From NCBI GenBank assembly GCA_026874595.1, contig CM049306.1, positions 26,155,519 to 26,219,518 on the forward strand: a stretch of DNA of 64,000 nt. The letters are read 5' to 3'. Position numbers and translations under genes: made by a program. The notes beneath the pieces were generated by a model. That model did not search any database. It saw only the letters and a program-made list of their open reading frames with translations, and had not been told where the DNA came from. Numbering within the stretch: the stretch's first letter is position 1; each line of letters starts with the position of its first letter. Positions 3,497-62,315 of this stretch are shown one piece after another. The stretch comes from Sipunculus nudus (lineage: Eukaryota; Annelida; Sipuncula; Golfingiida; Sipunculidae).

Positions 3497-4247
3497 GCTC
3501 CAATTCTCACAACAATGGTAACCCAGCAGGGGACGGCCAGGCTGGTGACGCAGGAGAAGGAACAGGAGGTAGGGGGCACTTTTAACCAATTAACTATATA
3601 TCTATATATGTTGTAAAACAATTATCATTTATACATTAGTTTATTGTTATGGTGCTTTGTCATCCAGTTATTAAACTTTTTGCACAAAAATATTCAGTAA
3701 TTTCATTGATCTAGAATACTTTTGAAATGTTTAATATTAAATATTGGACCATCAAGCTTAATGATTTCTGTATAAAATTTCATCTTTTTATATGGTATCT
3801 TAGATCTGTTATCAAGTGACACAATATGTGCAGAGTTGAGTAAATTATAACACATTGGTGTATGTTTCAGGAACTGACAGAAATAACATGGTCCAGGTAC
3901 AAGACCTGAATGAGAACTTCCCTGTACCTTTTGAGAGAAGCACCATGTGGAACGCTGAGGTAAAGTGGATCTATCATGGCGTCACCAACCTGAAGCCCGA
4001 GGACCTGGCTGTCAACATCGCATCGTCAGGTTACTATCAATGTCTGAAGTCTGCCCAGTGTCCATCAAGTCTCAAAGCTCACGCCGCGGACACGAAGAAA
4101 CCGGAGATGAACAACCTGCTGAATAACGCTCCCGCATCATACGAGGGTGCCTTACTCAAGTTCAAGAAGGGGATTTATCATTATATCTGCTCCAGAAACA
4201 ACAACTTTACTAACAGGAGCCAGAAAGGAACCATTGTTGTGAAGTAA
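3497..4247 (+). CDS. DD3-3-like protein, last two coding exons (partial or truncated gene)
   Basis: Two exons, 3497-3568 (72 nt) and 3871-4247 (377 nt including TAA), have the same lengths and phases as the last two coding exons of the secreted DD3-3-like gene at 43530-52863. The first encodes a Gly/Asn-rich linker (starts [14 protein letters not shown], once a G from the previous exon is supplied). The second encodes the C-terminal domain, with a CLKSAQC cysteine pair, GIYHY and the double N-glycosylation sequon in NFTNRSQKG. The protein of the second exon differs from the other copy at only 3 of 125 residues. Acceptors are ttacag and tgtttcag; the donor is gtaggg. No homologue of the preceding exon, which contains [12 protein letters not shown], is visible in 1-3496, so the locus is either a truncated duplicate or a gene with a long intron reaching past the window edge. 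DD3-3 is a family named from a Dictyostelium cDNA; its biochemical function is unknown to me. The intact frame argues against an old pseudogene. Confidence 0.8.
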
Positions 4248-36167: not shown

Positions 36168-37466
36168 TACGGAAGCGTATTGCTGCCACCTGGTAAAAGA
36201 AAAATCATTTTTTATCTCGTACGTACAACATACTATCTCGTACGTACGACATATTATCTCGTACGTACGACATACTATCTCGTACGTACGACATATTATC
36301 TCGTACGTACGACATAATCTAACGCACCAGATTCACAGAATACACAACAGGCCAACTGATATATGTATAAGCAATATATATATGTTAAATAATGCGTGTT
36401 CGTACCCTAACTACACAGCATCTTCACCTTGCATACCCTCGGAACACCGTTGAACAGAAAAAAATACACATGATTATTTATGTTTTTATTTATTTATACT
36501 ATACATTTAAATGCTATTCGATTTATCATTTTTTTTCTTTGTGTCTAGGTTTCGGAAATATTTCAAGGAAATGAAATTTATCATATCGTTTTCTGCCAGT
36601 CATATACAGAACTTTCATTTTTAAAAAGGTAATTAAATTCTGTTAGCAGTGTATGATGTTATAATGATGAGCCTGTCATACTATTAATAGGAAAAAAATA
36701 TTGCCTTTGCCAAATTGAAACAACCTTTTGGAGAAGGAAGGGATCGGACAAGAGGTACAGCTAACAAATAGCCTGATTGTAAGTAATTGAAAATGGATAT
36801 ATGTGAGGTATGTTTCTTATATACCAAAACTGATCTGTATAAGAACTAGATTTATGACATAACGCACAGTGTCACTCGCCCTACTGTAATTGGCACGAAG
36901 TTCAACTGATGGGATCAAGCACTTCGCTTCATAATATGTGAATCAGGACCCTCTCCTTATGGGCATCTCTGTATTACAGACACCTCCTATATTTTGACAC
37001 TCAAGGTTCATATTCTTTTGTAATAATATGTATTTTGTCTCAGGTAATCGTGTGTGAGTAAACATAGTGCACCTTTGTCTGTTTACTATAACAAGGCCGC
37101 GTGACCAGAAGCAAGATCTTAGTCTAGCACACGCGACACTTATAAAAAAAGAGAAGAAACATGAAAGAAAAAACACCTAGGAAAGCTTGAAAAATATTGA
37201 TTTGTGAAGTTTAATTTCACGGCCACCAGGTGGCGTTAGCGCTATTTGTTTTGCCTTATTGATCGCGCCCAGGGCAAGTTTTTTTCCCCACTTGTATACA
37301 GGAGAAAGCAAACGAAGAACGAAGTATTTAAAGATACCGTAATAGTTTAAGAAGACTAAATTGTATTTCATGTATACTCAAAATACCTGGTTTGTAAAAT
37401 GTTAATAGGTCCTTTTTTCATTTAAACTCTCTATTATACAATCGGCTCTCTCTCTCTCTTTCTCTA

Positions 37467-37543
<77 letters not shown>

Positions 37544-37622
37544 CTCTGAAGAAAAACAACACTGTAAATTCACTACAGTCTGTTTCACGGGATGCGACCA
37601 GATCATCAGGTGAATGTTGTTA

Positions 37623-37674
<52 letters not shown>

Positions 37675-37675
37675 T

Positions 37676-37707
<32 letters not shown>

Positions 37708-39166
37708 AAAAGGCTGAAAGCCTTTGGATATAATACCAGCGCTGTGTTAGAATGAATCAGCCGGTGGATACTATTAATGTCATTAGTAATACATGTAATG
37801 TCTATCAGAGGTTCTTGTTTGACCAGATAAAATATCCCGACATGTGCAAGGGACACAATTAGTTATTGTTACTTGCGGGGGATTCCTATGCTTATATGGC
37901 AAATTTGAATTGGAAATAAAATTTAGAAACGAGACCAATCGTTCAGAAACAAGACAAACACAGCGCTCACGCCACCTGGTGGTGGTACAGCATAAATTCA
38001 CAATTCAAGGGTTTTCAAGCGCCTGTAGGTGTTCCTTCTTTCATGTTACTTTTCTTTTTATAATTATCGCATGTGCGCGACCAAGATTTTTCCTCTGGTC
38101 ATCCGACCTTCCTTTGTAAACACTTAACAGACACTTCTGTAATACGGAGATGCACAATAGGAGAGGTTCATGATTCATATATTATGAAACGAAGTGCTTG
38201 ATCCCATAAGTTGCACTTCATGCCGTTTACAGAAGGGCGAGTTACACGCACATGTACCGCATACAAGATCTTATACCAATCCGCAAATAAGACAAATCTG
38301 AGGTGTAGATTTTACCACCACTTCAGCCTGACATATCAGGTTAAGACTTATTTTAGAATTTCGAATTATTCTGTCACAGATTAATCGCACTTCCATGAGT
38401 GATAGTTTTAATATATATTTTTTATAATTTAGTTCAAAATAAAAATTATACGTACCCCATTAAATGGCTGTATATGCATTAAATAGTTTAAAAGATCAAC
38501 TACACGAAGCGTTATGTATAAACCTAGTTCTTAAAAAGTTCAGTTTAGAATATTAGAAACCTATACCCAACAAATACCCAATCTCAGTTACTTAAAATCA
38601 GGCTATTTGGATGCTGTACCTCTTGTCCAAACCCTACTTTCTCCAAAAAGTAGTTTCCGTTTGGCAAAGACAAGATTTGCTTCTTATTAACATTATGACA
38701 GGCTCACTATTATTACATCATATACAGATAACATTATTTACTCACCTGTCTAAAAATGGGAGTTCTGTATATGACTCTAAGACAACGAAATATTACAGAA
38801 ACCTGGACACACACAAAAAAATTGTAAATAAAATAGCATTTAAATATATACTATAAATAAATAGATATATGTGAGTGTGTGTGTTAGTTTCAACGGTGGT
38901 CCAGCGGTTTGCAAGGAAGTGGAGATGTTGTATATATAGTTAATGTGAAAACTTACATTATTTAACATATACATATTGCTCATACATATATCTGTTGGTA
39001 TGTTGTCTAGTCTATGAATCAGATCCGTGAGATTTATTAGGTCGTACGTACGAGATAGTATGTCGTACGTAAGAGATAGTATGTCGTATGTACGAGATAG
39101 TATGTCGTACGTACGAGATAAATAATTTATTTTTCTTTTACCCGGTGGCAGCAATACGCTTCCGTA
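36168..39166. mobile_element. 3.0-kb foldback transposon
   Basis: The ends TACGGAAGCGTATTGCTGCC and its complement at 39147-39166 pair exactly. Flanks cgttac (36162-36167) and cgttac (39167-39172) form a 6-bp target duplication. The arms continue inwards: a minisatellite of about 21 bp containing 'ctcgtacgtacgacata' at 36215-36316 is inverted at about 39039-39121; 'gggatcaagcacttcg' near 36911 is inverted near 38180; 'ccaccaggtggcgttagcgc' at 37222-37241 is inverted near 37957-37982. The arms are about 1.1-1.4 kb, with a centre around 37260-37950 that itself holds inverted CT/TA and TA/TG microsatellites. No transposase frame seen. Confidence 0.75.
37440..37712. repeat. Paired microsatellites (CT-CA-TA and TA-TG)
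   Basis: CT, CA and TA runs at about 37445-37535, then TA and TG runs at about 37625-37707, in mirror order in the centre of the foldback element. They generate spurious YIYIYI and ERERER frames. Confidence 0.9.
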
Positions 39167-39600: not shown

Positions 39601-40560
39601 CTAGAATACGGGTAGTCAACAAGCGACTTTGTATATCCGCCGAAATCAGAGTGGGACGGATGAAGTGAGGCATGGATTGAGTGGCAGGGGGAACTAGAGT
39701 AAGGTGTGTTGCATATTAGCCTGGATGTCTGCAGCCAAAATATGTATGTAGATGGCGCCATCTGCTAGAAAATACAGAAAGCTATCCAAGCTTTATACAT
39801 ATGCAAACTTTTAGGCAGATAAGTAAAACCTCTGCTTGTATACCAGTGATGTTATCCCACAGCAGACAAACAGAACGACGCTGTTGCAAAAATGGTTGCA
39901 GGTGGCGCCAACAACTTTGTGTATGATAAAGAGCGATGTGAGATCTATACACATGCAAAATTTTAGGGGGATATGTCAAACCAGTCCTGAGATATAAGCC
40001 CGGATGTCTGCAGCGTAAACATAAATGAAGGTGGCGCCACCTGCCACAAAATCCAGAAAGCTATCCAAGTTGTACATACATGCAAAATTTTAGTGAGATA
40101 AGTCAAACCACTGCCGAGATATGAGTGATTTTTTTCCCACGGCAGAGAGACAGACGGGCGCTGTGCAAAAATGGTAGCAGGTGGGGCCACCAGTTTTGCG
40201 TATGATAAAGAGCTATGTGAGATCTATACAAATGCAAAATATCTGGAGGATACGTCAAACCAGTCCTGAGAGATAAGCCTCAACGCGTAGGGTGAACGTG
40301 TAGGGTGCGCCACCTGATATAAATCAAGAAAGCTATCCAGGATGAATACACATGCAAAATTTCAGGTGGATAAGTCCAACTACTGTAGAGATATGAGTAA
40401 TTTTTTATCCCAAGGCAGATGAACAGATGGACGCTGTGCATAAATGGTTGCAGGTGGCGCTACCATTTTGTGTATGTTATTAAGCTATCCAAAGGCTACA
40501 TTTGCGCAAAATTTTTAGCCTGATTGGTCAAACGAGTCCGAAGATATTTGGGTTAATGTG
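39601..40560. mobile_element. Hairpin-ended element with about 277-bp units, copy 2
   Basis: Starts CTAGAATACGGGTAGTC, as at 27445, and shares 'gtgaggcatggattgagtgg' and the ggtggcgcc units (about 39888, 40167 and 40440). The 5' hairpin is partly decayed in this copy. Right end approximate. Intergenic. Confidence 0.65.
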
Positions 40561-43529: not shown

Positions 43530-46500
43530 TTATTTCACGACGATGGTTCCTTTCTGGCTCCTGTTAGTAAAGTTGTTATTTCTGGAGCAGATATAATGAT
43601 AAATCCCCTTCTTGAACTTGAGTAAGGCACCCTCGTATGATGCGGGAGCGTTATTCAGCAGGTTGTTCATCTCCGGTTTCTTCGTGTCCGCGGCGTGAGC
43701 TTTGAGACTAGATGGACATTGGGCAGACTTCAGACATCGGTAGTAACCTGACGAGGCAATGTTGACGGCCAGGTCCTCGGGCTTCAGGTTGGTGACGCCA
43801 TGATAGATCCATTTTACCTCAGCATTCCACATGTTGCTTCTCTCGAAAGGTACAGGGAAGTTCTCATTCAGATCTTGTACCTGAACCATGTTGCTCCGGT
43901 CAGTTCCTAGAAGAGACAACCATAATATGAGACATTTACTTGTATTTTTAGCCCTTGCTTAATTTATTATTAATCATAACGCATATCTTTATGGTCTGGC
44001 TTTAGTGCTAAGGTATGCACATAGAAGGTTCTGCAAATTCGGCAGGATTACCGTTGTTATGGGAATTGGAACCTACAAAAACGGAATGACGAAACTATGA
44101 TAATAAAAATACCAATATATTGAAGCCTTTTCATAAGATTGTCTGACATACACGGTTATGTTTGTTCCTTTTAGATCTGGGCATACTAATAATACCGGAA
44201 AACTGAGATATTTAGTCAACGGAAAAGATATGTATTTAATGACTGATATTATTTTAATCTGCAAAATGGTAAGTAAACTACATTAACACGTCCACAACCC
44301 ACCGCCTGTGCCCTCTCCCGCATCACCGGCTTGTCCATCCCCGGCAGGATTACCGTTGTTATGGGAATTGGAACCTACAAAAACGGAATGACGAAACTAT
44401 GATAATAAAAATACCAATATATTGAAGCCTTTTCATAAGATTTATATATAATTTATTGACTTTAGTTTTAATCTTAATGACAAAACAAGCTTTATTAATT
44501 AAAGGGTACGTTATACTGACAAAAGAACACGGTGGCTATATGTTCGGCTATAACATGTCTTGTATATTTCTGTGTGTCTTATATGTTGAGGTGAAAATAT
44601 GAGTTTTCGTCTGCGTGTTTGTGTATATAGAGTTAAAAAAATGAAATATAAATATGTTCCAACTGTTCAATGCTGCTTATCCATTATAATATATATCAAT
44701 ATTGTCTCAGAAACCATGAAATACCTCCAGGATTGATATATTACCTGTCCATTGTACGTGAACCCTGTCGTTACTGGTGACTTCCAGGTTATTTGGGAAG
44801 AAGTCATATTCCACCGCTGGGTAGACTTGTACAATGTTTCCTCTCTTGCCCCTGACATTTAGGTTATATATAGTACTCTGTTCTTCCCCGGCTGGGCGTG
44901 ACTTCATCCTGAACACATGAGTGCGGTCCTCGAAAGTTCGGCCAAACTGTGCCGTGTTGATGGCGAGCCTCAGGGGAGACGCTCCGGCGTTGATCTCAAC
45001 GTAAGGGTTATTAGACACGGGTGACATCACCATCTTGCCCCTACAAATAACCAGTTTTCATTAAATAGTTATTCACTTCACATACCTGTAAAGTACAAGA
45101 GAGCATTCAGATATTTCAGATAATTAAGGGCTGTATCACACAGCACAGGTGACGTACACCACCATTTTTCCCCTGTTGGGATAGTCAGCTGATTTGTATT
45201 AACATCTGCTCTACATCATTCAATTTGATTTAAAGAAATTAGAGCATTGATTTTATATATTTTTTGTTCTTTGAATTTTACCCTTAATGTCATTGGAACA
45301 TAACCAGCAAGACAATGAATACTCTATGTACCTCCTTAAAACCTGTTTATACGCGATGGGTTTGTCGCCACCATCCATTATATACAGTCTTTTAATGATA
45401 AGTACCACATTTTTTTCTAAGAAAGTCATGAATTATAGGAGATACAAGACATGAGCGAAAATTACATAAAAACTAAGTCACCGGAAGAAAAGAAAGAAAG
45501 AAAGTAATAATCATCATGTTCATAAAAATATCAAACCTTTATATTATGTTTTGACTACCAGTATTATTACTTTGCGAAAATGTGGTGTCGAAATAATTTT
45601 AATAAGATTACCGCAAACCTGCATAATACGCCTTTTGTATGTAACAACATGATCTCATTTAATATGCACATATTTATGTACATAACTGAATCCAGATGAG
45701 AAACGCTATTGGCACATATCTATATGTCGTGAGTTTCATGAAAACCCGTCAAATATTTGGTAAGTCAACACAGCGCCATCGAAGTCTGAAGACTTCATTA
45801 AATATCCATAGATTTTGACGAGTATCGAACGCATGCGAGATATACCGGTTAATATTTCTGTTGAGTTTAATAAAAATCCATCATGTTCCTGCTAAGTAAT
45901 CGAGGCGACACCACAAAGCAGCCTGGTGACCTATGATTTCATTATATATGCATGGACTTGCAAAGAATCGAACTCGGGCGAGATAATCTATTGGTTAATA
46001 TTTAAAGTGAGTTTCCCATCAAAATCCCAGCAAGTTATCGTGGCGTTACTAAAAGCTAACGGACGGACGGACGCTGTCCATATATACACCATAATAAGGG
46101 CGTATAAAATACTTTGCAGGCCATAGGAATATAATGGAACAATTATCTTCGATACACGTGGAAATGTCTCTTAATGGACCAAGTGAATTATGCACGTGTG
46201 GATTAAAAGAGGACCCATGCTCCTCTGGGTCACATTATTTTGCCATCAGTTAGATTGAACATTGAAATTTGATTGAAACTCTTAAATCGTTATAATTGTC
46301 GCGCGGTCCATATCTTCAGTATTAAGGAATGTGAGAATACTATATTGTTGACGTACCTGTTTTCATTATGCCTGGAGTCAGTGAAGTATGGGTTGTAGTC
46401 ATCCGTAGAGATGTTGTACCTAATGAATGAAATTTTAATTTGCATACAGAGAGTGAAATCCCTAAAAAAAGGATAATGGAATATCTAGTAAAATTTAATT

Positions 46501-49500
46501 TAAACCACAAAATTTACCAACTCCCTACTATTAATAAAACGTTGTACAATAAGAGTCTGATGATTCTGTTGATTCATGGGATATCTGAGATAAAAGTGTA
46601 AAAACTGCTGTCCACACATGTCCAGAAAATAACTAAGTAAAGATTTACAGATCTTTTAAAAATTAATCTTAGATCATTGGTGAACCTGACTTATGTTTTC
46701 ATTAGTGTCAACTATTAGTTGACTCCAGTGTTGTGGCTGTAGGTGTGTACATCTATGTTAGAATAATTGGGAAAACATGAATGTTTATACCTGATTCTCA
46801 GCATACAGCGCTGTGTATCTCCAGAGGGAAAGAAGGGCAGAGTCCAGGTGTAGTTATTTGGTGTCCCGTGCCGTCCGTTCCCAAGATGGTTTGACCTTAC
46901 AAATTACAAGTATATTATTCAGCCAATAATTACAAGGGGTAATCTCTGTAATAAAAATTGACAGCTGTACTTATTTTCAAGGAATATAGAACAAAGATGC
47001 GGCTTGGAACATTTTTAACACCGCGTATTACTTTGGGAGAAAAAAATAATATTACCTGGACCACGGAGCTTCAGCACAGTCTGGTTCTGGTAGGGCTACA
47101 AGACATTCCTCTGTGCCAGATCTGGAGTCATGTGGGATGACCCAGATGTACTTGACAACATTGTTACTGGCACTCTCACAGGCCGCCTTATTCTTGTGTT
47201 CTAAAAGAGTTGGGGAAAAGATGAATAGTCATATTAAGCATTCGTATAATCTAAATTGCAAACAGACATTTTTACATATGGTGAAAGTATATATTATCTA
47301 TATATTAATCTTAATATTATACAGTTGGGGCACTACGCTAACGGGAGCCAAATGTAAACATTTTGGTCGTCAGTGTATATTCTTTACAATAAAAATTTCA
47401 TTTACAGTAACAAAACAAGTTACTAAACATACGACGAAATATATTTTACATGATTAATTTGCATATTTTTTATAGCCAATAATTCGGTATTTTGAGGAAA
47501 AGAAAACCTACGAGTGGCTTTTTCCAGGTAGTTATGTAAAGCGGTCCACGTGCCTCCGTTCTCTGTACATTCCTTCTCGTTGTTCCACCGGGAGTTCTTT
47601 CTCCTTGTCTTACCACCGTCCCAGAACTCCAGACATTCGTGGTAGGGCTGTGTGTTAAAACTCTTACTCTTGTAGTGACTGAAACAGCAACGTGAACACA
47701 ATCATGGTAAACTGAGAACTCAGACAGTCAAAAAGAAAATTTTATATTACAACTGACGATTGTTGTCCCTACCGTTATCATTGAACTCCTTTGTGACCGG
47801 AGCTCGGAAATGCCCGTGTGTTTGACCTTGAAATACCGGAACAGTGCTGTGTGTGTCCTAAGGGTGCCATTTTCCCATATTCCCTTGTAAACCTGAGGTT
47901 TGATAATGTTTCGCGTAAGGATTATTGCAGCATCATCTATCAGAAACTACACCGGTGTATCCAATGGGCGAACTTTCAGCGCCATTGATCATATTTGGAA
48001 TGAAACTAAACTGATCTTCAAGTGTGGAATAATGAACAGGTAATGTGCTTGTAATATTTAAAGGGATATTCAAGAGATCTCATACAACAAATACCTCTTC
48101 CAAAAGCTGTCTATAGAAAGTCAAGATCAACTCAATCAATTAAAAACTGCCCAGACTACTTCCGTTAAGTGCCATGTATTCCAATACTAATAAAACATTC
48201 CACTAGATGTCAGCACTGAGGGTTGTCCCTTACTAATCAATTTAAGAAGAACATTTCATGTATTCATGAATGCTATATATAAAAGTAAACCTGGCCATGG
48301 GGGTAATGCCACAGTTATAGTATTAAAATCATGACAATTATATTGTACGTCATTTTTAACATGTATTTATCATCTTACCTGCACATTGTAGCATTTTCGG
48401 CCAGTACAGCGATGTCTTTCCATGGAGTTGGGTGCCAGTAAGGGTAGTAGTCTCTCTCCTCTGGACATTCGTAGCCACGACGGTTTCCGTTGGCATTCTG
48501 ACGAGTGTAGATTGCGCTGCTATAGCCGAGGCCATTGTTGCCCTTTAACTTTTGATCAGCGGTAAACAGGCCTAGAAAAAGGTCGAAACACATGTGACCA
48601 TTAGGTGTTAAATTAACATCAAATAACCATGCAACTATTTCCACTTACCATGAAGATTTAGACAGCTGTATTAAATAGCATAAAAGTGTACAGCCTATAG
48701 TGTACAATATAAAATAAATATAATCATCAAATTCCAAAGAACTGATTTCTCCGAGGTAACTGTTGTTAGAAATAGTTTTAAGCCTCACCTTTTCAATAAG
48801 ATTTGTAACACATATGGTATAACATATTATATCTGGACACATTAGGGTAATGAGAGATTTTGAAATAAAAGGCAAACTCTGGGTACCTTTGTTCCTCTCT
48901 CTGACGTAGCATTTGTCGTACCATTCCCAGGGTTCATGGTAACCTTTATTCAGGTCTATGTTATTTAATCTGCGGTTATTCTTGGTGCCCTCCCTTTCAT
49001 TTTTCTGCGGTCTGTTATAATTTTGTCGTCCTGTACTTGTGCCATCACGGAAAAGATCCTGAGACTTTGACCCTGTAAATATAGTGCTCATATTATAAAT
49101 AAGAAACAACTCTCGGTGAGGCAACTACAAGCTCATCGCATGCAATATTTATATAAGATTTTGTAAATTTATTTCACAACTCATATATTATTACTATATT
49201 ACCTATATTATATTTTAAAATATTTTCCAATACTAGTTAGCTTACGCACACATCATAAATTTTATTATTGCTTATCATATGTCCTTCATTCTTCATTATC
49301 TGTATGATAAGTTAAAGCACGTTTTATGTTACTTACAGATGGCCTTAACTGTACATGTTAATTTCAACGGGGGAAAACATACAAGCCAGTTTGGGTATTT
49401 TCGGCAGAGATGAATTTAAGGGTGATAGGCATTTGTTAAGTTAGGAATGCTGGAGGTTTTTGGAAATTCTTTAAGCCTCTCTAATCTACATCGTAATTAA

Positions 49501-49648
49501 TCTGATTATATTTTCTCCGTTGGTAACGCCCTTAACCGAGAATTTCTTTCCTTTTATACTCCAATCGAGGACATTCTTTATCATGGAATCATGTTTCTAC
49601 AAGAGTAGTAATTGTTAAATTGAAAATATGTCAAATACCGTTAATGCT

Positions 49649-49734
<86 letters not shown>

Positions 49735-52700
49735 TACACCACGTATACACGTGTACAAAGAAATCGTGGCAAAACGCGCCATTGTGAACGTACCCTTCCA
49801 TGTTGAAAGACAATATTACTAGAGGTTGTATTAAAATGTAGAACATAGTATAACATCTGCAAAGGTTTGTCATTTTTTTTTTACTTTATAACATTACACC
49901 GAAATTCTGATATTTTCCCGCTGAAAGATTGCCATATTAATCGGTAACGAAGGCAAGGAAACTGGATGTTGTGTATATCCCTTTCTTACATATATAGGTC
50001 AAACCAAGTACAGAAAAGCTCAAATGAAAGTCAGTGTCAAACAAGGACTTACATTTCATATCGCTGGTTAGCCGTTGATTAAAATTCCTGATCTTAATTG
50101 TTCATGACCTTTCATGAAAAATAAAATACCACGTGACCTAACTGTAACCAACAATTACCATAAAACTCACCTGTGACAGAGGCCTGGTCCGGCTGACACA
50201 TGTACTGGAACACGATGTTACAGTTGAGCTTGTGAGGGTCGGAGTCTTCGTTCCCACCACATCCATGCTGGTTTGTCCACTCTATTGTCATAAACGTTTT
50301 GGCGTTTTTATTACTAGCTGATGTATATGGCCCACTTTGGAAATACGTCTGTTAGGAAACAAACAGAAAGTTAGATGAGCGCATTATGAATGCTTTGGTC
50401 AAAAGTATTATTATTCTGTTGTATGTAACCGTATAAAGAACATACTAGCTGCACATGCCAAGGAAAGGGATGGCATTATAGTCAATGTAAAGTCAAGGCA
50501 AATGGATTTGGGCCCTGTGTGTTTTTTTTTTTACTGTAGTGCCTTATTGTTTTGTTTTTTACTGTGGTGCTTTATTCCAGGGTATTATATGTAATTGTGT
50601 CCATTTATACATAGAATTCTTAAGTTTTATTTATGTCCAATATTTGACAAATGCACCAGGCATCACTTTATTACCAATTACTTTGTTTGATTGTTATTAT
50701 GATGCTCATTCAACGGGTTATACAGGTGTTACACTGTCGAAAGTTCTCAGCCTGGTCCATTATATGCTTCCACAATCGCGCGCTACTTTTCATCAAATTG
50801 TGCTCTTTGAATGGTTCATTATCCAGCTTACATTAATACGTGGTTTCTCTCGTTTTCACTGTTCATCCACATCAAGTTTCACAGGAAATCCTCTCATGAC
50901 TAAAGCTTCTACAGAATTAGCTGATTAGGCGGTGTTCCCTTAATTGTCCCTATAAATCTCACGACTGCACAAGCACAAGTTATTTTGCCCACTATGACGT
51001 CCGCTCCCAAACAACTATAAACAGTTCGATCTCTATTCATGGATCATATATTTAAGTCATTTGGCGCCCAAATTAGTGTGTGAGAGAGAGAGAGAGAGAG
51101 AGCATGCATGACGTATCACCTCTACATAACAGGATGGGAGTTGCTAAAATACCTGCCTTTATGACACCGATTACATATTCCTAGCTAATTTGAAGGAAAA
51201 ATAAATAAATATGGTATACAACATCGTAACATACTGTCGCACGTTATAATACTTTTATAACGTGATAATAACAATAAGCAAAATGATGATATACCGTCAG
51301 ATTCCTTAAGGAAGGGGTTTTGCATAGGGTAGTCCGAAGAAAATCACCCAGTTCCTTTTTTTCCAGACATTTATTATAATTTGCGTCAAGTGGGAAAAAA
51401 TGAAAAATATATCTTGTGAGAAAAAGGTTAAAGATACGAACAACATTGCCTGCGATATACTATCTACATTGCCTCTTCATATTCTAATTTCTTACCGAAG
51501 TATGGTTCATAATAACGTAACACATTTGTTGAGCCTTGAGGCTTTTCTGGGCAGTGACTCAATTAGGTTTCCGCCAGAACTAGTACGATTATACACGCGC
51601 CCATAAAAGGAATGCTAGGATATATAATGGTTCAAATTGACCTTAAGCATTGCACTCGTGGCCGTGACGGGCTATCTGCATGGCTGCATTACACCGTCTG
51701 GGCACGCCTGGGCGCAGATAATACCTGGATTACATAAGTCTACACAAATTATGCTGCGAAATCGTGTGTGCGTGACAGATTAATCATTACTATTAACCAC
51801 TGAAAACTCACCATCCGGTACTGTTTTGACTGGTCCCGTCCTGCAGACCGCTCCGTCTTGTCTCCAACATTGTAGCCTCCTCTGTTATTGTTCTATGAAT
51901 TAAACGATTTAACATTAACAGAAATTGATTTAACAAAATGAATATAACTGACCATTCCTGACTGTAAGAACGTTTCATTATGAGTCAAATTTATGACCGA
52001 TCATTACTGCATATTTTGAAATATTAAGACGGAAGGACTAATAGTGGATTTAAAGTATTTGTGAAAAAAGGACAGCAGAAAATTTTTCTATATGAAAACC
52101 TTGATAAACTTATTTTAGGTGTAAGGTCATGTCAAATCAATCTGATCCACCACGTCATAATTAAGACCTCCACCTGCGATGTGGTGATTTTGCCGTGACA
52201 TTCCAGCCAAACTATAATTTAAAGGAAATGTCAGTCCCAATGATCCAAATTCTCGCACCCAAATAAACGACTAGGCAGAGAATTTGTCACCTTTTTTTTC
52301 AATTCATGTCACTTGCGGGGGGGCATATATTAGAAGATTAATGACATGTATATGCACTACACGAATACTGTGGTAAACAGTGTACGGTTAAAAAACAATT
52401 GAAATTAAAAAACATAGTTAACATGCAGTGTTCATACCAATATACTTTTTCTCAATACTTTTAGTGCTTCATGGACGTTCTTATCTAGGTATACATTTTG
52501 TGATATTTTCGCAAAAGCAAGCCACTGTAACTGCACCTCGAAACTCAAAAGCAACCGGTGGAAAAAGGTGCTGTGATACTTTGGTTGCACACACAACAAC
52601 CGCATACCACAAGTAGCCGGAAATGTGTAAAAGTAGCATCCCCACATGAAAGACCACATGTATCAAGAAAAAAACTATGAATCATTGATCAGGATGGGCA

Positions 52701-52863
52701 GGATTCTGAATGTCCTCCTTACCTGTGAGTCAAACAGTCTGTTGGCGTTTGCTCGCTGTGCTGAGCGTTCGTTCAGCCTGTTATTAGAGCCTCTAGGGGA
52801 GTGCATATATACATCAGCCAAGCAGCCAGTTACTGCCAGCAACAACAAATATAAATGTCTCAT
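43530..52863 (-). CDS. Secreted DD3-3-like protein
   Basis: A complete gene with twelve coding exons: 52863-52723, 51892-51812, 50348-50171, 49072-48887, 48571-48379, 47678-47512, 47200-47056, 46895-46791, 46419-46357, 45040-44745, 44374-44303, 43906-43530. They sum to 2004 nt (667 aa plus TAA) with consistent phases. Residues 1-16 are a signal peptide ([16 protein letters not shown]), and the mature chain begins [13 protein letters not shown], the family hallmark. Next come [11 protein letters not shown], cysteine pairs ([15 protein letters not shown]), [68 protein letters not shown], a Gly/Asn linker (about 519-543), and a C-terminal domain with CLKSAQC and the double sequon in NFTNRSQKG. 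It ends VVK with no membrane helix, so it is predicted to be secreted. A non-coding first exon ending at 53353 (donor GTGAGT) joins the acceptor at 52875, 11 nt before the ATG. Function unknown; the family is named from a Dictyostelium cDNA. Confidence 0.9.
44040..44140 (-). pseudogene. Duplicated exon-11 acceptor fragment (101-bp direct repeat)
   Basis: Identical over 101 bp to 44342-44442. On the coding strand it carries the intron 3' end with its GTAG acceptor plus the first 33 nt of exon 11 (44040-44072), without the donor. It lies between exon 11 and the last exon, so it is a broken exon copy that could act as a decoy 3' splice site. Confidence 0.85.
49651..49730. repeat. (TA)n microsatellite
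   Basis: About 80 bp of TA in the third intron of the secreted DD3-3-like gene, giving spurious YIYIYI frames on both strands. Confidence 0.97.
50520..51800. other. Intron of the secreted DD3-3-like gene, nothing recognised
   Basis: The stretch holds a 129-codon frame (50539-50928 +) with no family match, a (GA)n run at about 51080-51100, and no element boundaries that I can define. Confidence 0.5.
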
Positions 52864-53353
52864 CTCTCCTGTTTCTGAAATAAGATTACACATGCAAATC
52901 ATTTAATCTATAAATGTACGTTAAAGTACAGAATACACATCATTCATGGATCATTTAACAGGACGATCAAACTAGATGCTTCCTCTACATACACACGCAT
53001 TTACTTTCTCATGGACAACACGGATAAGGTATAGAATAGTACAATGCCAAGGAATTCACCTGCTTGATCAATTCACATATGCTTCACATTCTGTTATATA
53101 CGTGTATACATTAATCTCTGCAGGATTAGGTCGGTATGATTAATTCGGTAATATATGTTTAGAGTAATATATTGATAATATTGACTACAGTATATTAATA
53201 TTTTAAGAGAAATATATTAATATTTCAAGTAACATATGAATGAAAATATATAAAATCGTCTCCAATATTTTGACATAGTTGAAGCTTCCATCCAATTAAC
53301 AGTTTTCCAAAACAAGCCTGATGTTACGTTATAACCAAGTACAGCGACTCACC

Positions 53354-53836
53354 TCGGGGAAACCTGCAGACTTTTCTTGCCGTTACACTTTTCAGATTTC
53401 AAGAGTTGTGGTACAGGTTCATACAGGGCCTTATTAAAGCCAGCACGCTGGAACACTATTTATTAACCGGACCTTGTTAATCCCCTCCTCATGTTCGTTC
53501 ACGTACATCACGATGTCGACCTTTGACCCGCTTAATATAAAGAAATATAGATCCAACAATTTATAATCGTTTATTTTTTATTTTAAAATAAATAAATGAA
53601 TAAACTTTTTCTTATTCTTTACATTTTACAAATAAAATTGTGAAAAAGACCCAAATAAAAATTAAGTTAAGCATTGCATAATGCGCTCATGCAAGAACAT
53701 ATGCAAATTTGTAGTGCTCGGGTCATGCATTATACCCTGCATTGAGATATATATACACTAGTAAAATTGCATTCATAACCAGCACAACGGTGGGACACGC
53801 GAGGAAGCTATAGTGATAAGAGCGTGGACGGCAGAC
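53354..53836. promoter_or_regulatory. Shared intergenic promoter region of the divergent DD3-3 pair
   Basis: Only 483 bp separate the first-exon donor of the minus-strand gene from the ATG of the plus-strand gene, so both transcription starts fall here. TATATATAC at 53748-53756 is a plausible TATA box for the plus gene (start about 53780). On the minus strand TTAATAAATAG (about 53456-53466) is a weaker TATA-like box. CGACCTTTGACCC at 53517-53529 (minus strand GGGTCAAAGGTCG) fits a DR1 nuclear-receptor element. Positions are sequence-based guesses. Confidence 0.55.
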
Positions 53837-56800
53837 ATGGGACCTGTACTGATATACATGACTTTGCTGGTAGCAGTGAATGCTGATATATATTTTCACA
53901 ATCCAAGGTAAGAATGTTTTTTTCTCTCATATTTTCTTTTTCTTAAGGAATGCATGTAACATATAACATTTAACTGGATTAATACAATTGTTTTTTTAGG
54001 CTTTCTATGTATCAATATTTAGACTAAATTAATTATTTTTAAAGATATATAACCCACGAGCCGCATTTATAGACTGGTCTATTCGACTATTTGGAAAAAA
54101 TGAAAATCATAATCGTATTTTTTTTAAAATGTATACTACAAACGATTTTAATGTTTCAGATGATTAAAAAATTGTTTTCATATATGCCTGGAAGACTATG
54201 ATTCATGGGAAAAGGAAACATTTAATTGCAATTTGCATAATGTGGTCAATATGGGAATAAACATATACATTTATAACCAGCCTCATGTTGTTACAGAAAG
54301 TATGTACATATTAACAACAATTGCAGATACGTAAGTCATATTATATAAAAAAAACTTATTTTTAAATGACCAGGATATGCAATTATAAGCGCTCGTGTGG
54401 TTCGCTTTGTCCCTCCATCATGGTGCTACCAAAGCAAAACTAAAGTTAACCCGGTCTCGTTATACAAGAAATGATATATCTATCTAATTTCAATATAATT
54501 TTGGTTGGTCTGTCAATTATGACTGAATTATATCAGCAGCATTTCTTTCACAATATGTTTGCATAAAAGATTATAATATGACACATATATGACACTCAAT
54601 ATAATCTAAAATGGTATTTATTTGTTGCAGGGGTAGCAATAACAGGCTGGATGAGAGAGGGAGAGAAAGAAGAAACGCAAACAGGTAATACACTGAATGC
54701 ATACAGTTATAGGTAAAACCAAAAAAGTTCTCAGTCCCATAATGTTATCATTTGCCAATAAAAAAAAGCAAAACAGATTTTGCATAATCTGAACTTTTTT
54801 GTCAGAAAGCTGTCAGGACTTATTTGTTACAGTCAACTCTAGTGTCACATGAGCTACAGGGAATCCCTTCTAAAAGAAAAATTTATATCTCAACAAACGA
54901 TAAGTATTTTTACACTTTTTGCAGCAAATTTTCAGGGCTCTAATCAATAATATGCCGTGATTCTATTGTTCAATGATTCGGGGGGGGGGGGGGGGGACCT
55001 TAATACATATCTTGATATGCGAATACATTTTACATGTCAAACCAAGGAGATTACGTGACCTCGATATATAAAACCAATAAATCTTAATTCTTTTACCATG
55101 TGGTTTAAAAGCATATGCAAGGTTGTTTCATCATAAAACGTTTTTAGTCCGTTATTTATATGGCCCAGTCGCATCAGCATAAAGCTGTGTGTAACATATC
55201 ATTTTTAACTTTATCAGTTTATTCTAATAGAATATCATTTTTTCCAGACTCTTTGATTCACAGAACAACAACAGAGGTGGCTACAATGTTGGCAGTTTGT
55301 ATTATTATGTTGGTTCAAAACTACCGATTGAATGGTAAGTTTTTTTTCACTTAATAATTTCCCTATTCTATAACTGCTGAGAAATATTATTTTCCATCAA
55401 TAAAATTCTATATTTTATTCATATATTTACTTTATAGATTCTCTTTCGTTTCATATTTGATGTATTTAAATTAACCTCACTTAAAGTTTTACTTATATCA
55501 ACTTATTTGATTCTTCCTATGTAAATGAAGAGACTTACCAAATTTAGCATGTTGATGCTGTATACCTGTGTACGCAGGTATGTGTTGATTAAATGATGTA
55601 TAATGTTTATTTATACAAGGTCAACTCTTGTGATTAAAAAAAATATAATATTCATAACATTTCTCTAGTGATTTGGCTTTGTGTGCTCGTAAGTTATATT
55701 TTGATAAAATAAAACAGGTAATTTATTTTTTTCCTGCAGGACAAATCAACACTCTTGTAACACCCCGAACAATCATTGCGAGTTAATCGTACAGTATATG
55801 TGCGGGGATGCTGTGCGTGATGGAACAACTATTTCGTAAGTAATCAAATATTTTAAATAAATTTGTGCTGCTTATTGCTTTAATAGTTCACTTCTATTTA
55901 AACTGAACTTTCTTTTGTTTTAAAGCAACATGTCAGTGGTTGTAGGTGCAATAAAAGTAGTGAGATAAGGCCAAAAAAAATTAAAGGTATGGTTCTCAGG
56001 CACCGCCCGCATCAATTTTAACCCCCCCGCATCAAAAATTTTTATTTTGATTTTCAACAGAAACTTACCGATTTTGAGCTGCAGCCGCTCGGATATTTCT
56101 TTTAAGTAGATAAAATCATACAATTTCCTTTGTTATGTAGTGCTTTAGCTTGTTTAGCAAAATAAATCTGTTATTATCATGTTTTTTCCTTATCATCTGA
56201 CATTTTTATCGAAACATACAAAAAAGATAAAAAATAAAAAAACCGCCCGCCCGCATTGATTTCTAAAAAAAAAGTGCCTGAGAACCATATCTTTTTTTTA
56301 TTTTGGCCTAATACATGTACTGTGTTTGTTAACATTGCTTTTGACTTAGTCTTAAACTTGGTATATGAAGTGTTGTGCGCTTGAGACCATTTATAAATAT
56401 ATAAGGTGTTTATGTTGTATAATTTCATTGTACCCCTACATGTATGCACATAATTAGAATATTTAAACGGAAAATATCAAGGTGACATGCTCGGAACTTG
56501 TTGCCTGGTTCCCGGTTTATTATATGTGGATTGTTTTATTACAGGACCATCCCTGATAACCCGATGCAGTGTAAGAACTACGACTGTAACTCTCACACGG
56601 AGTACGGGATGCACGAGGATTACGATTACTACATGAACTGTAAACTACGACAGAGGAACAAGGGGCTCTTCACGGCAGACCAGGTAACCGAGTTTAATAC
56701 ATATTGATCTTAGTTTGGACCTATATGCGTATCTTCATTTAGTGTGGAATGTATTGAGATATAGAAAACCGCAGCAAACATCCCATGAAAAGGCAGAAAA

Positions 56801-59800
56801 GACGCACTTAGGTTTTGTTGTTTAAGATGTATTCTGGTGTATTTTCTTAAAAATATTTATTACTCATTAAAAAAGAATAGGACAGGCAAGAAAGTGAGTT
56901 AGATATGAAATTTCTTTTATAAAAATGAAAAATGAAAATGAAAATAAGGAAGTCTTTAAATGAAGGAGTGAAAAAGTATAAAAGGTGATAAAAAATACAA
57001 ATTTACACAATATTAGGAAATTATAAATGATGAATATTATGACCCATACATGTGCAATAGAATCTGCGTGGGAGAGAAAGAGCCAGAAATACACGTCAGA
57101 ATCCTCGTGGAACCCGCAGAGGGTACGAGTGTCCGGAGGAGAGAGATTACTACCCTTACTGGCATCCTACACCATGGAGGGTGAGTTGTTTCACCAACCA
57201 GTCTATACATGTCAAGAATGATCAAACATTACCCTCAACATTGAGGTCTCTTGTCTCTCTCATGCTCCAATATCTTTAATGCATTATAACCCAAGAACAG
57301 CCCATGGGGAAATGTATATAAAATATATATTTGAAAACGTGTAATGAATCTTATTCTAAGTTTTACTGCTTATGTATGACCTCATGTTACGACCAGCTAG
57401 ATGGTTCCAAGAACGTTGGAATGAGGAAGTGAATCCGCATAAGACATATCACCATTATTGGTATTAGCTCTCTCAAAACCTTTATTCACATTAAGGATAG
57501 AAGGCTGGTGGACTCTTTTTATGTGCGATCTTCTTAAGCCCCACTGATGTTTCTTAGGCGGAAATGTTGGATTTAGGAATAAAAATAACTTCAATGACCG
57601 AAGTTGAGGAAAACACTTTCATTGAAATCGTTAATTATACCTGTCGGCACTTAAATGCTACAGGCCTGAATGATGTACAGCTCTGAATGAGCGATTTTGG
57701 TTATCCCTCCACAAAGTTTGCAGTGTGGAGCAACAATTGCTTCCACCCAATGTACTTGCTTATGATTGTGTGAATTTGGTCTTGAACATGCAGGATATCG
57801 CTGTGATGACGAATGATGTGAACCGCTGTCCTTACTACCAAGAAAACAGTGAAAATGTCAAAGGTCGCTGGGCATGCGTGTTACCAAGAAGTCTAATGAT
57901 GAGAAATCAGAAGAACAGACAATTTATAATTCCCAACAACCAGAAGGACTGTGAGGTGGGAACGAAAGCCATTGAAACTGATACACAATACACGTTACCA
58001 CACAATAATATGTTCGTTTTTACAATCCACAATTGTCGTTGATTTCTGTCTCAATTAAGTGTCGTAGTCACAATAACATCTTTAAAAATACATCCTTAAT
58101 ATAAACACTAAACAAATGTTAATAATAATCACTTCTGCGTGTTTTTATTCTAATTTCTAAGCAATATCTGATATATAAAACAAGAAATAATCACCTAATG
58201 TTTCAATGTACTGCCTAACAACTACTTCTTTTCCTTTATGAAGTCATTCAGGTGGCCGAAAAATGACAGGAACGGCACTCGCGCTAGATGGGTCCAATTT
58301 CCCTCACACAAACAGGCAGCGCCACAGTGCCAAGAAACCCGCTTCAGTCGAGACAATCACCTAGGTAACGGCCTGGGAGGGTTCCCAAACACGTTCGACT
58401 GGACTGTGCCAAACACACTACATGAAAGATGCGTGCTTAGAATCAGGTATAACCCTTTTACTCTTCTAATAAGGTATACCTATATCACTTAACATATTAG
58501 ACTGGCCAAGTCGGTAAGCTTTTGTTTTGCTAGTTGGCATTACCTCGGGCAGGCACTCCTATCCGGTGGGAAATTATAAAACCAATAAATTCATAGGACC
58601 GTCATGTTTGGTCGGCTTTACCAGTAGGTACACATGAACCATGCAGCGCCATGGTAAAATTGCTGAAGCAGAAAGCTTTTACATTCTAGTAACTTTACAC
58701 ACACATTTAAAAATATCGATTTTAAATTTCATATACTCGTCTTTTTTAATAATTATCCTTTTAAAGCTGCCTTTCCATGAATATGATTTTTATGCGGTGC
58801 GATGGCATTGCGCTGGCGAGGATATACCTAGCGGAGCGTTGAACGCGTTCACCGCGCGGAAACCCGCGTCATTGAAAAGGCTACATGAATAAAATGATTA
58901 AAAACGCTTGAGCGATTTTGACCGCCAACGCAACGCCATCGCACTGCTGAAAGAACGCGTTCATGGAAAGGCAGCCTAACGTGGCCACTTCCTTTGCTGC
59001 AGAGAACGCTAGCGGCCCTCAGAACTGACATTGAACAGTTCTGATTTAAAACCGTTATCACTCATGTATCTAATCTAGTCTTTTCTTTTAATGTTTCCGT
59101 TTTCAAGTGTATTTAAAAATAATAATAATATCAAGCCATCTGTTTCAGCGTCATTTTCTTCTTCGTCTTTCAGATACAACATCTCTACCGCTGATTATAA
59201 TGCTTGGGATGACAGTGTGAATGCCTCAAATAATGCACCAAAAGCAGGCCAGCCCGCCAAATTATCTCTGGCCGCAAAATTTGGCTTCCAGTCAGACAGC
59301 GCAGCGAGCCAAAGGGGCTATGTTTTCGAGAATAACCCAGAAGTGAACGTGTTTGAAGGGATAAAATTTAAGTTAAGACTGGCAATTAATACCGCGCAGT
59401 TTGGAAGGACCTTCCAAGACAGGTAAGTGTATATAGATATAGAATCACAGCAGTTCTGAATAAATGCAGATGTTCATTTGTATATAATTGAAAATAACTG
59501 TTTGCGGGGATTACCTGCCCATCCTTACCTGTTCTTGTAACCGGTACATATCTCCTTAGTTTCTCAGGTAAAATAACGAAATTTTCATGTTCTGTGAATA
59601 TTTGGCAAAATAACTTCTTGACGAAATGGCCCTTGTAAAAATGACATATATAAATGCAGCACCATGGACTAATATCTGCTTATACACAACCTTCGTTGCA
59701 GGTCTCACACATTTGCCATACGTGGCAGACCAAAAGAGCTGAAGGGTGCAACAATCCACAACCTGAACGTTCGTGGAAAACGTGGTAACATTGTACAGGT

Positions 59801-62315
59801 TTACCCTGGGGTGGAATATGACTTTGTCCCAAACACCTTGGAAGCCTCCAAAGATGATTACATACACTTTCAGTGAGTTAAATAATTAAAATGACATTTA
59901 CACACCTGCGTTATAACGTGAACTGGCATGTTAATATTCTGTACCTCAGTGTTTGAGGTTTCTTTTTCCTGCAGAAAAATGTTTGATTTATATATCTTTG
60001 AAGACCTTTCTTTTTATTTGACGATGGTGCATAAAGAAAGCTATTACATAAAACTTAAGTTTCATAAAGATATTTGCTGGTATATCAATGATGTGTTTCT
60101 TAACCCATTTCAACGTTTATTTGATAACAAGGAAGGGTCTGGTGAAGATACACGGGTCTTAGAATGCATTGAAACATTTCAGTGAACACATTTTAACTGT
60201 TCCTTGAGTGCTTTTGTTGTAATCTTATGTTTACCTGGTCTTACTTTACCTTAAGTTGACCCGGTCATTATTTTTGCTGTTCAGGTGGACTGGTTCCAAT
60301 ACCAATCCAAACAACAACGATGGACAGGGTCAGGCCGGGTCAGATCGTTCCAATGTTGTCCTGCAGAGGGAGCAGTCGTACGATGAAGGCACTGGCGTAT
60401 TCTACAGTGATACAGAGAAGTACGGTCACTGGGGCCGCAGTTATCCAGCATCACTCAGCAACGCTTCCTTCCTTGGCTTCTCTAAGGAAAATCTTATGAG
60501 ACTGGCTCTCCTTGAAAACCGTAAGTAAAAAAAACTGGATAATCAATTCAGTCTGAATACAATTTCATTACTTTAATTTTGCAAATATATTTCATGTAAT
60601 ATTGATCACATGAAGTTAATGGTAATATATTTTACTTATGACAATAACTGCTTTTCGATAACCACCCCCTGAGCGTAAGAAACAGGCAGTCTATGTACAA
60701 GACAAATGTTTATATATGGGTACCACAATGTAAATAGGTTAAACGTAAAGATATTATTTTTAATTATAGATAATTGAACGTTTAAAGCTTCGTAGAAAAG
60801 TATATACATTCATAAACAGGACTAGTAACCAGGTAGAAGACAGTAACACAAATCCCCCCTTTGCTAAAGCAATCAGTGTTTTACCCGCCGGTGTGCATCA
60901 CTATAGATTTTTCTTATTAAAATTATACACGTGCATGTCAGTAAACAATTAAGAGAATTTCAGGTATATCAAATACATTCGATAAAGTGTTTTAAGATAT
61001 ATAAGTGAGAGATTACAGATGTACCTAATTGCTAAATAACAACCAAATATTTTCTTTGCTCCGATTCCATCCCATGCAAACCTTGAAAGAACTCGCATAT
61101 AAATTGGTAATTCATAATAGGACAGCAAAATAACTAAATTTATATGAGATGCATACAAATATGGTTTCTACAAGAGAAGTTATTGTCTTTATTAGACCAT
61201 CCTTTCTTGTTTTCTGTTCTCTCAGATCAGTTCCGTGGTGAGATGTCGGAGTTAGACGATGCCGGTACGTATTTTGACCTGAAACCTCAAAAGGTCACCA
61301 GAGAGGGTATCTACCACTACCTCAGCACCAGAAACAACAATTTCTCCAACAGAAGTCAGAAAGGCAAGATCATTGTCATAAGAAGAAGAAAAGCTGAGCA
61401 GAGTATTGGATGGAATGGAGGACAGGCAGAACTGACAGAGTAAGTCTGTTACAGGATTGTTAAATATTTAACATCATTGATATTTTAATTTATGCCGCTT
61501 TTTTTTAAGTGGGATATAAAGTTAACGTCTACTGTTTTGTCCACAGATCATTTAAGGTAACATTCGGAAGAGGAACCTTGTCCAAGCTGCAGCAGCTAAC
61601 AATTGAAGAAATTTCTGTGGATGAAGGACGGAATGCCATAGAACATGCTGGACGGGTACCACCTGTGAGTGTTTTCCTAATTTATTTGAGCATTAAATGC
61701 TCATGTATTTAGTAAATGAACAACTTCAACAAGTTAATGAATACCCATCAAGAATGTAAAAAGGAGCGCTTTGCAGTTGTTTTTCCTACAGTCTGCCTAA
61801 ACTTTGACACAGCAAACTAGTTCCATGTAATTATTTTATAATAGGCCTTTACTAATATATTTGTTTTTGGGTCATTCGTCAGGGACATTCATTGTTACCT
61901 TTAATTTTCTCCATCACAGAATGGGGATTATGCCAGCAACTTCTTGGTTCTTGAGCCCAGTGACAAGATCACATCTGGTAACAAGAAGTTTACCATTGAA
62001 GCAGAGATCGACCCTGGCAGTCCAGGCAGCACTGTCAACCTGTACCGAGCAGACAGCAGCAGCTTTGCCACGTGGACGGTCATGGACTGTGACATCAGTG
62101 GACGTAAAGCCGTCTGTCAGACAGACAGAGGGGGTACTTACATAGCCATCCGTGACAGTAAAGTACCTGTGATCGTGGGTATCGTTGCAGCCCTGGTAGT
62201 GTTAGTGGCCATCATAGCAGGAACTGCAGTGTACTGCCGCAGGAACCCCGATAAGCTGACCAACGTCCGTAATTGTTTCAGACAGGCTTCCAGTTCCATG
62301 CAAGGACAAGTGTAG
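53837..62315 (+). CDS. Membrane-anchored DD3-3-like protein
   Basis: A complete gene with fourteen coding exons: 53837-53907, 54631-54684, 55248-55334, 55740-55835, 56545-56683, 57061-57180, 57794-57955, 58244-58446, 59174-59422, 59702-59872, 60285-60520, 61226-61439, 61547-61664, 61920-62315. They sum to 2316 nt (771 aa plus TAG) with consistent phases. Residues 1-16 form a signal peptide; the mature chain starts [13 protein letters not shown]. Family blocks shared with the divergent neighbour include [72 protein letters not shown] and [17 protein letters not shown] with its two sequons. The neighbour ends at that point; this protein continues with about 180 residues: a basic RRRK patch, an acidic/Ser-rich domain with two cysteines (DCDIS, VCQTD), a transmembrane helix at about 722-745 ([20 protein letters not shown]) and a 26-residue cytoplasmic tail with basic residues. 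Predicted type I membrane protein. Exon 8 needs the AAG acceptor at 58241-58243; the nearby CAG acceptor would break the frame. Function unknown. Confidence 0.9.
55969..56308. mobile_element. PIF/Harbinger-type MITE
   Basis: The ends GGCCAAA and TTTGGCC form an imperfect TIR of about 35 bp ('atggttctcaggcac' left, 'gtgcctgagaaccat' right). TAA flanks both sides (55966-55968, 56309-56311), the 3-bp TWA target of this superfamily. 340 bp, in intron 4 of the membrane-anchored DD3-3 gene. Confidence 0.65.
58765..58976. mobile_element. PIF/Harbinger-type MITE, 212 bp
   Basis: GCTGCCTTTCCATGAA (58766-58781) and its exact complement (58960-58975) are 16-bp TIRs. TAA flanks both ends (58762-58764, 58977-58979). 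The interior is CG-rich and partly self-complementary ('gaacgcgttca', 'gaacgcgttcatgg'). In intron 8 of the membrane-anchored DD3-3 gene. Confidence 0.75.

Follow-up and report, generated by a model that had tools for sequence, protein, structure and literature searches.

The 64,000-nucleotide stretch of the Sipunculus nudus genome analysed here (the window; positions 26,155,519 to 26,219,518, forward strand, of contig CM049306.1, assembly GCA_026874595.1) carries two DD3-3-like genes arranged head to head, one for a secreted protein (S1) and the other for a membrane-anchored protein (A1). Reading of both strands between window positions 42500 and 62700 gave the following models (numbering is that of the window unless the contig is named).

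43530..52863, minus strand: S1, secreted DD3-3-like gene, 12 coding exons, 667 amino acids (aa), signal peptide, no transmembrane helix
52863-52723, 51892-51812, 50348-50171, 49072-48887, 48571-48379, 47678-47512, minus strand: S1 exons 1-6
47200-47056, 46895-46791, 46419-46357, 45040-44745, 44374-44303, 43906-43530, minus strand: S1 exons 7-12
53837..62315, plus strand: A1, membrane-anchored DD3-3-like gene, 14 coding exons, 771 aa
53837-53907, 54631-54684, 55248-55334, 55740-55835, 56545-56683, 57061-57180, 57794-57955, plus strand: A1 exons 1-7
58244-58446, 59174-59422, 59702-59872, 60285-60520, 61226-61439, 61547-61664, 61920-62315, plus strand: A1 exons 8-14
61920..62315, plus strand: last exon of A1, encoding the part of the ectodomain next to the membrane, the transmembrane helix (residues 722-745 or so) and a tail of 25 aa; no counterpart found in S1 or S2

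The secreted and the anchored protein

A preliminary description of the stretch had reported two complete DD3-3-like genes of 667 and 771 aa at these coordinates, and our models agree with it. Both are open multi-exon frames, and all introns (11 of 11 in S1, 13 of 13 in A1) have GT-AG ends. The common ectodomain blocks described earlier are likewise present: BLASTP of A1 against S1 gives an E value of 1e-126 with 38% identity in the gapped alignment, and identity is 48% across 530 aligned codons. The open multi-exon frames, this E value and the existence of a second, similarly organised pair in the same cluster argue that the pairing of A1 and S1 is more than chance.

The two proteins differ at the C-terminus. 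Beyond residue 20, the highest Kyte-Doolittle mean over 19 residues is 3.17 for A1 and 2.83 for A2, the anchored member of the second pair, compared with 0.46 for both S1 and its counterpart S2. A hydrophobic C-terminal helix is present in A1 and A2 only, and the earlier assignment of a transmembrane helix and short tail to the 771-aa protein alone therefore stands. A1 extends about 190 residues beyond the end of S1, first as a membrane-proximal region, then as the helix and finally as the 25-residue tail, while S1 terminates 12 residues past the invariant RNNNF block. Anchoring by glycosylphosphatidylinositol (GPI) requires a hydrophobic C-terminal tail, and the low maximum of S1 after residue 20 means that it has neither a helix nor a GPI-type tail.

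At the N-terminus of S1 and A1, a signal peptide is followed by D-[VI]-Y-[MF]-H-[SN]-PRGSNNRL. The mature N-terminus of all four genes reads D[VI]Y[MLF]H[SN]PRGSNNRL, which fits the pattern D-x-Y-x-x-x-PRG-x-NNRL of the DD3-3/HrSMLP1 family. Published work is represented here by excerpts of each source, and what is said of it is limited to those excerpts. The mature N-terminus of HrSMLP1, a protein of the ascidian Halocynthia roretzi, was read by Edman degradation as DMYMQNPRGXNNRLNEN (PMC6916515); 12 of 16 read positions are the same in S1 and 11 of 16 in A1. By homology, this match supports cleavage before D17. The same match to the ascidian protein is what backs the DD3-3 name for S1 and A1, which is accordingly used as a provisional one. 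Computed precursor masses are 75.9 kDa (S1), 75.7 kDa (S2), 87.6 kDa (A1) and 87.5 kDa (A2). S1 and S2 have five N-glycosylation sequons each, A1 and A2 have six and seven, and the four mature proteins are all basic with a computed isoelectric point (pI) of 8.6-9.1.

S1 also contains an exact direct duplicate of 101 bp on the minus strand (44342-44442 and 44040-44140). It spans the 3′ end of intron 10 plus 33 nt at the start of exon 11, and is repeated inside intron 11. In the second copy the remainder of exon 11 and its donor are missing, and this copy resembles a dead partial exon.

The second pair and the age of the two classes

Searching the genome (1,426,538,692 bases) with A1 and with S1 gave at least 30 matches each, and those listed all fall within 26.123-26.218 Mb of a single contig. 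In this cluster a second pair is present as a mirror image of the first, consisting of the anchored A2 (766 aa) and the secreted S2 (667 aa). Order on the contig is A2 (minus strand, 26137555-26123196), S2 (plus strand, 26139010-26159762), a gap of about 39 kb, S1 (minus strand) and A1 (plus strand). The S genes are thus tail to tail across the gap, whereas start codons of the divergent A and S genes are only 973 bp (A1/S1) and 1454 bp (A2/S2) apart. All four frames are open throughout. The end of S2 falls within the window.

3497..3568 (contig 26159015-26159086), plus strand: S2 exon 11; S2 exons 1-10 are left of the window
3871..4247 (contig 26159389-26159762 plus the stop codon), plus strand: S2 exon 12 with stop codon

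Genome-wide probes at E<=1 gave at least 6 matches (14 scored candidates) for S1 exon 10 and at least 4 (4 candidates) for the S1 exon 5 block, all within the same four genes; among the matches of these two narrow S1-derived probes there was no fifth DD3-3-like gene, and the count stands at four or more. Intron 8 of S2 (contig 26152989) is of the GC-AG type (AG/GCAAGT), while its S1 counterpart is GT-AG.

A1 and A2 are 80% identical across 766 codons, with nonsynonymous (dN) and synonymous (dS) divergence of 0.128 and 1.058 and a dN/dS of 0.12 by the Nei-Gojobori method (NG86). For S1 and S2, which are 93% identical across 667 codons, the corresponding values are 0.039, 0.541 and 0.07. YN00 gives a dS of 1.002 with a ratio of 0.127 for A1/A2, and 0.416 with 0.093 for S1/S2. 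On these estimates A1/A2 and S1/S2 are old duplicates under purifying selection. Mirror-image copies within one contig might also arise as an assembly artefact, the second pair being a misplaced haplotype, but dS of about 1.06 (A) and 0.54 (S) together with mostly unalignable introns is far beyond allelic difference, and we consider this explanation so improbable that it was rejected. Inverted DNA matches between genes of the two arms track exons and run past their ends by no more than some tens of bases, and the remaining inverted matches in the cluster resemble scattered repeats.

No positive selection was seen among 60-codon windows with a defined ratio (dS was undefined in three A windows); the maxima are 0.50 for A, in the membrane-proximal region, and 0.32 for S. 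Residues 577-666 or so of A1, from the end of exon 12 to the start of exon 14, have the highest A1/A2 ratios (0.22 and 0.50), both below 1.

Differences at fourfold sites between S1 and S2 are patchy, ranging from 1 of 17 in exon 6 up to 4 of 4 in exon 9. Unevenness of this kind between exons was matched by 0 of 5000 permutations for S and 3 of 5000 for A, and the longest identical run has p values of 0.042 and 0.006. Of the S exons with low divergence, numbers 6 and 10 show raised identity in the 5′ intron flank (0.70 and 0.79) next to ordinary 3′ flanks (0.56 and 0.29), and both flanks of exons 5 and 12 are ordinary; all other S intron flanks range from 0.09 to 0.61. Exon 10 of the A genes has 2 fourfold differences in 25 and ordinary flanks (0.42 and 0.49), so the unevenness in A comes without a sign in the flanks. 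Gene conversion between S1 and S2 is suggested, not shown, and for parts of S only.

The split between anchored and secreted forms is much deeper than the duplication of the pair. When intron positions are compared with their phase on the four-protein alignment, A1 and A2 have 13 of 13 in common and S1 and S2 have 11 of 11, while A1 and S1 have a single one, which places the split far before the pair duplication. Identity between A and S is 47-50% over the 530 codons, with saturated synonymous sites. A1 is 47.0% identical to S2 and 47.9% to its neighbour S1; A2 is 49.8% identical to S2 and 50.2% to S1. A and S are thus separate old lineages standing head to head, and on the simplest reading they were copied as a unit. 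Two other origins were tried and rejected. A recent tandem duplication giving A and S does not agree with one common intron (against 13 in A1 and 11 in S1) and saturated dS. Derivation of S from A by truncation, or by alternative splicing with loss of the transmembrane exon, does not agree with a tblastn search of the 119-kb cluster with A1 (E<=0.01), in which the last 131 residues of A1 match only A1 and A2, although an undetected diverged exon is possible. The first 6.2 kb 3′ of the two S genes have no common sequence by blastn at E<=0.001.

These comparisons also bear on the earlier proposal of a decoy/receptor pair, in which S would duplicate the receptor ectodomain in soluble form and compete for ligand. 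The order of ectodomain blocks is the same in both proteins, and S is without the membrane-proximal region and the helix, as this proposal would have it. However, A and S are only half identical, carry large S-only insertions and have one intron in common, and the hints of sequence homogenisation are confined to within a class. The strongest argument is that a decoy should track its receptor, whereas A1 is about as near to S2 as to S1 and neighbours are in general no more alike than non-neighbours. A simple soluble decoy is therefore disfavoured, and we regard it as quite unlikely.

The interval between the divergent start codons

Features of the region between S1 and A1 are listed below.

52864..53836: interval between the start codons of S1 (at 52863) and A1 (at 53837), 973 bp
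53442..53723: stretch collinear with the A2/S2 intergenic region, candidate shared promoter, 114-395 bp before the A1 ATG
53701..53708, plus strand: octamer ATGCAAAT, part of a 25-bp block in which 20 of 25 positions agree with the A2 promoter
52875..53352, minus strand: candidate 5′ untranslated region (UTR) intron of S1, donor 53352-53351, acceptor 52876-52875, inferred from sequence

The interval is longer than the intergenic region of under 500 bp given earlier, which has to be corrected. CpG observed/expected is 0.98 in this interval and 0.85 in that of A2/S2, compared with 0.51 across the surrounding 119 kb. When the 973-bp and 1454-bp intergenic regions are aligned without the 30 nt nearest to S, they are collinear in the same orientation with a score of 39.5; in the opposite orientation the score is 26.0. 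Of 400 control windows drawn from these 119 kb, 13 were discarded for overlap, and none of the remaining 387 (mean 23.9) reaches 39.5; 100 crude shuffles peak at 36.0. The octamer ATGCAAAT, a motif picked post hoc that we take to be the POU/Oct octamer, is located 136 and 141 bp upstream of the two A start codons. The 25-bp block around it belongs to the collinear stretch, and its 20/25 match was equalled by 2 of 970 random 200-bp control pairs.

Just upstream of the ATG, each S gene has a TTTCAG resembling a splice acceptor, and strong donors are located at distances of 485 and 532 bp from the start codons of A1 and A2. In S1 this TTTCAG ends 11 nt before the ATG and the donor is a consensus one (GAG/GTGAGT), while S2 has three donor candidates, including GTAAGT at 532 bp. 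A non-coding first S exon beside the conserved intergenic stretch is therefore likely from the sequence, and the 5′ UTR intron would probably place the S1 transcription start within about 500 bp of the A1 start codon. If the intron is not used, S1 has an alternative in-frame ATG at 52902.

The pair present twice, mirrored, with open frames under purifying selection, lends support to the earlier suggestion of one module in soluble and anchored versions, and to the view that the arrangement is no local accident. The collinear similarity of the two intergenic regions adds to it weakly and by a small margin. It is nevertheless quite possible that A and S are independently working paralogues which are neighbours by inheritance and were copied by one segmental event, with no joint function. 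Their low identity, the single common intron and the saturated synonymous sites are all consistent with such a history, as is the weakness of the promoter similarity (39.5 against a control maximum of 38.5). What it does not readily explain is that both members have been kept in both pairs since a time corresponding to an A1/A2 dS of about 1, and that divergent spacing is close in both pairs, in contrast to the tail-to-tail distance of about 39 kb.

A possible two-part surface recognition module

DD3-3 proteins are reported from Dictyostelium to invertebrate chordates, and none from vertebrates (PMC6916515). The family namesake, DD3-3 of Dictyostelium discoideum (DDB_G0283095), has been used as an example of a single-transmembrane surface protein, like A1 (PMC10022678); a single helix of this kind is present here in the A genes only. 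Unlike the present case, no secreted partner is described in the excerpts on the Dictyostelium protein. Its knockout shows faster aggregation and impaired cyclic AMP signalling (Sakuragi 2005, cited in PMC6208332), and a sponge DD3-3 gene is upregulated 3 h after microbial-pattern exposure (PMC6208332). DD3-3 is also among settler-enriched proteins in a coral proteome (PMC12960093) and is named in two gene lists of a Ciona transcriptome study (PMC8495957). In a comparison of two Alvinella species, a DD3-3-like gene is named among 37 whose dN/dS is significantly above 1 (PMC9441076), whereas the ratio between the copies described here is low.

HrSMLP1 is a DD3-3 relative on the hemocyte plasma membrane and has been proposed as a self-marker in allorecognition (PMC6916515). 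Its calculated mass of 73.8 kDa and its five N-glycosylation sites are nearer to S1 and S2 than to A1 and A2, and the word 'transmembrane' has zero occurrences in the main text of that paper. Charge variants of HrSMLP1, which the authors suppose to be glycan differences, track the allorecognition reaction (PMC6916515). It differs from the present genes in its hemocyte membrane location, in a single Southern band and in that no pair is described in the excerpts (PMC6916515). If HrSMLP1 is of the S type and yet located on the hemocyte membrane, something must hold it there, and an A-type protein from an adjoining gene would be the simplest candidate. A partner may thus retain a secreted-size DD3-3 form at the cell surface, and S would then be displayed or used together with A on the same cells.

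Among the explanations weighed here, we therefore tentatively favour a surface recognition module in two parts, whose A/S pair behaves as a unit and has a promoter region in common. The second, inverted pair about 39 kb away, with both members of both pairs open and constrained, is the ground for such behaviour, and two pairs intact since an old duplication suggest that the anchored and secreted forms belong together. The A ectodomain would be displayed on a cell, perhaps a hemocyte, and S would be secreted by the same cells through the shared divergent promoter region. S might then coat the cell surface by binding A, or alternatively recognise a glycan or cell-surface ligand of the kind that A recognises. 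Shared promoter, co-expression, contact between A and S and the recognition function are all inferred here.

That adjoining secreted and membrane genes can be tied to allorecognition is shown by Botryllus fuhc-sec and fuhc-tm, which are 227 bp apart and co-expressed, and polymorphisms of both of which correlate with allorecognition outcome (PMC3691228). The likeness is one of working and not of membership, since fuhc-tm has three immunoglobulin domains and by description is another type of protein; also, the secreted gene ends before the membrane gene and the two are not head to head (PMC3691228). A wider version, in which divergent anchored and secreted DD3-3 genes would form a two-component cell-recognition unit of ancient origin, conserved among invertebrates, with A displaying S in a fuhc-like layout, appears doubtful. 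Two DD3-3 accessions are consecutive in amphioxus and in acorn worm, two apart in Capitella and seven apart in oyster (PMC6916515), and such near-consecutive accessions might reflect neighbouring genes, in whichever orientation. Against this version, accessions are 488 apart in Trichoplax, 58 apart in Amphimedon, and far apart in Ciona, Strongylocentrotus and Nematostella (PMC6916515).

Several points weigh against a two-part recognition module. Close divergent gene pairs are frequent in animal genomes, so orientation alone means little, and the intergenic similarity exceeds the highest control only slightly. Neither whole protein (S1 or A1) has a match in Pfam at E<=1, and there is no convincing match among solved structures. 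In the ascidian, amino-acid variation of HrSMLP1 does not track the reaction, and the single Southern band leaves a partner unproven there (PMC6916515).

It is also conceivable, though unlikely, that S is a component of extracellular matrix or of cuticle or shell, and that A ties cells to it. The secreted nature of S, the short tail of anchored A and the basic character of all four mature proteins are in keeping with a matrix and its anchor. On the other hand, no long low-complexity or repeat stretches are seen by eye in the four sequences, and DD3-3 localisation work, as excerpted, concerns free cells.

Profile searches with pieces of the proteins gave only sub-threshold matches in Pfam and NCBIfam. 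The C-terminal ectodomain matches the NCBIfam halocyanin (cupredoxin) model TIGR03102 with an E value of 0.046 and 13.8 bits, against a cut-off of 93.8. No Pfam cupredoxin family was matched, and hhalign against one plastocyanin gave a probability of 1% (E 0.054); a cupredoxin fold is suggestive only. Other Pfam matches are DUF4518, on pieces and below threshold, and the transmembrane profiles EphA2_TM (E 0.069) and TM_ErbB1 (E 0.3), both weak matches to A1 below curated cut-offs. Scans of bacterial/archaeal and viral contigs with two peptide patterns each gave 44 and 47 pattern matches, none of which was confirmed. A literature search on the function of the paired anchored/secreted DD3-3 arrangement found nothing relevant.

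DD3-3 proteins have been linked to cell aggregation and to hemocyte self-recognition, with no partner or ligand named in the excerpted literature. The family is found here, in at least four genes, only as maintained anchored/secreted pairs. This points to a candidate partner, and co-expression and binding assays could put the question to the test.

The gap of about 39 kb between S2 and S1 contains tandem arrays at 21332-22602, 27650-28424, 39713-40476 and 7413-8245, with units of about 180/359, 278, 279 and 320 bp. An open reading frame of 135 aa at 27776-28183 falls inside one of them. Inverted repeats are present at contig positions 26186361-26188081 (window 30843-32563) and 26191686-26194684 (window 36168-39166); their matches of about 710 bp each are 82% and 76% identical, and they are possibly hairpins of mobile elements.

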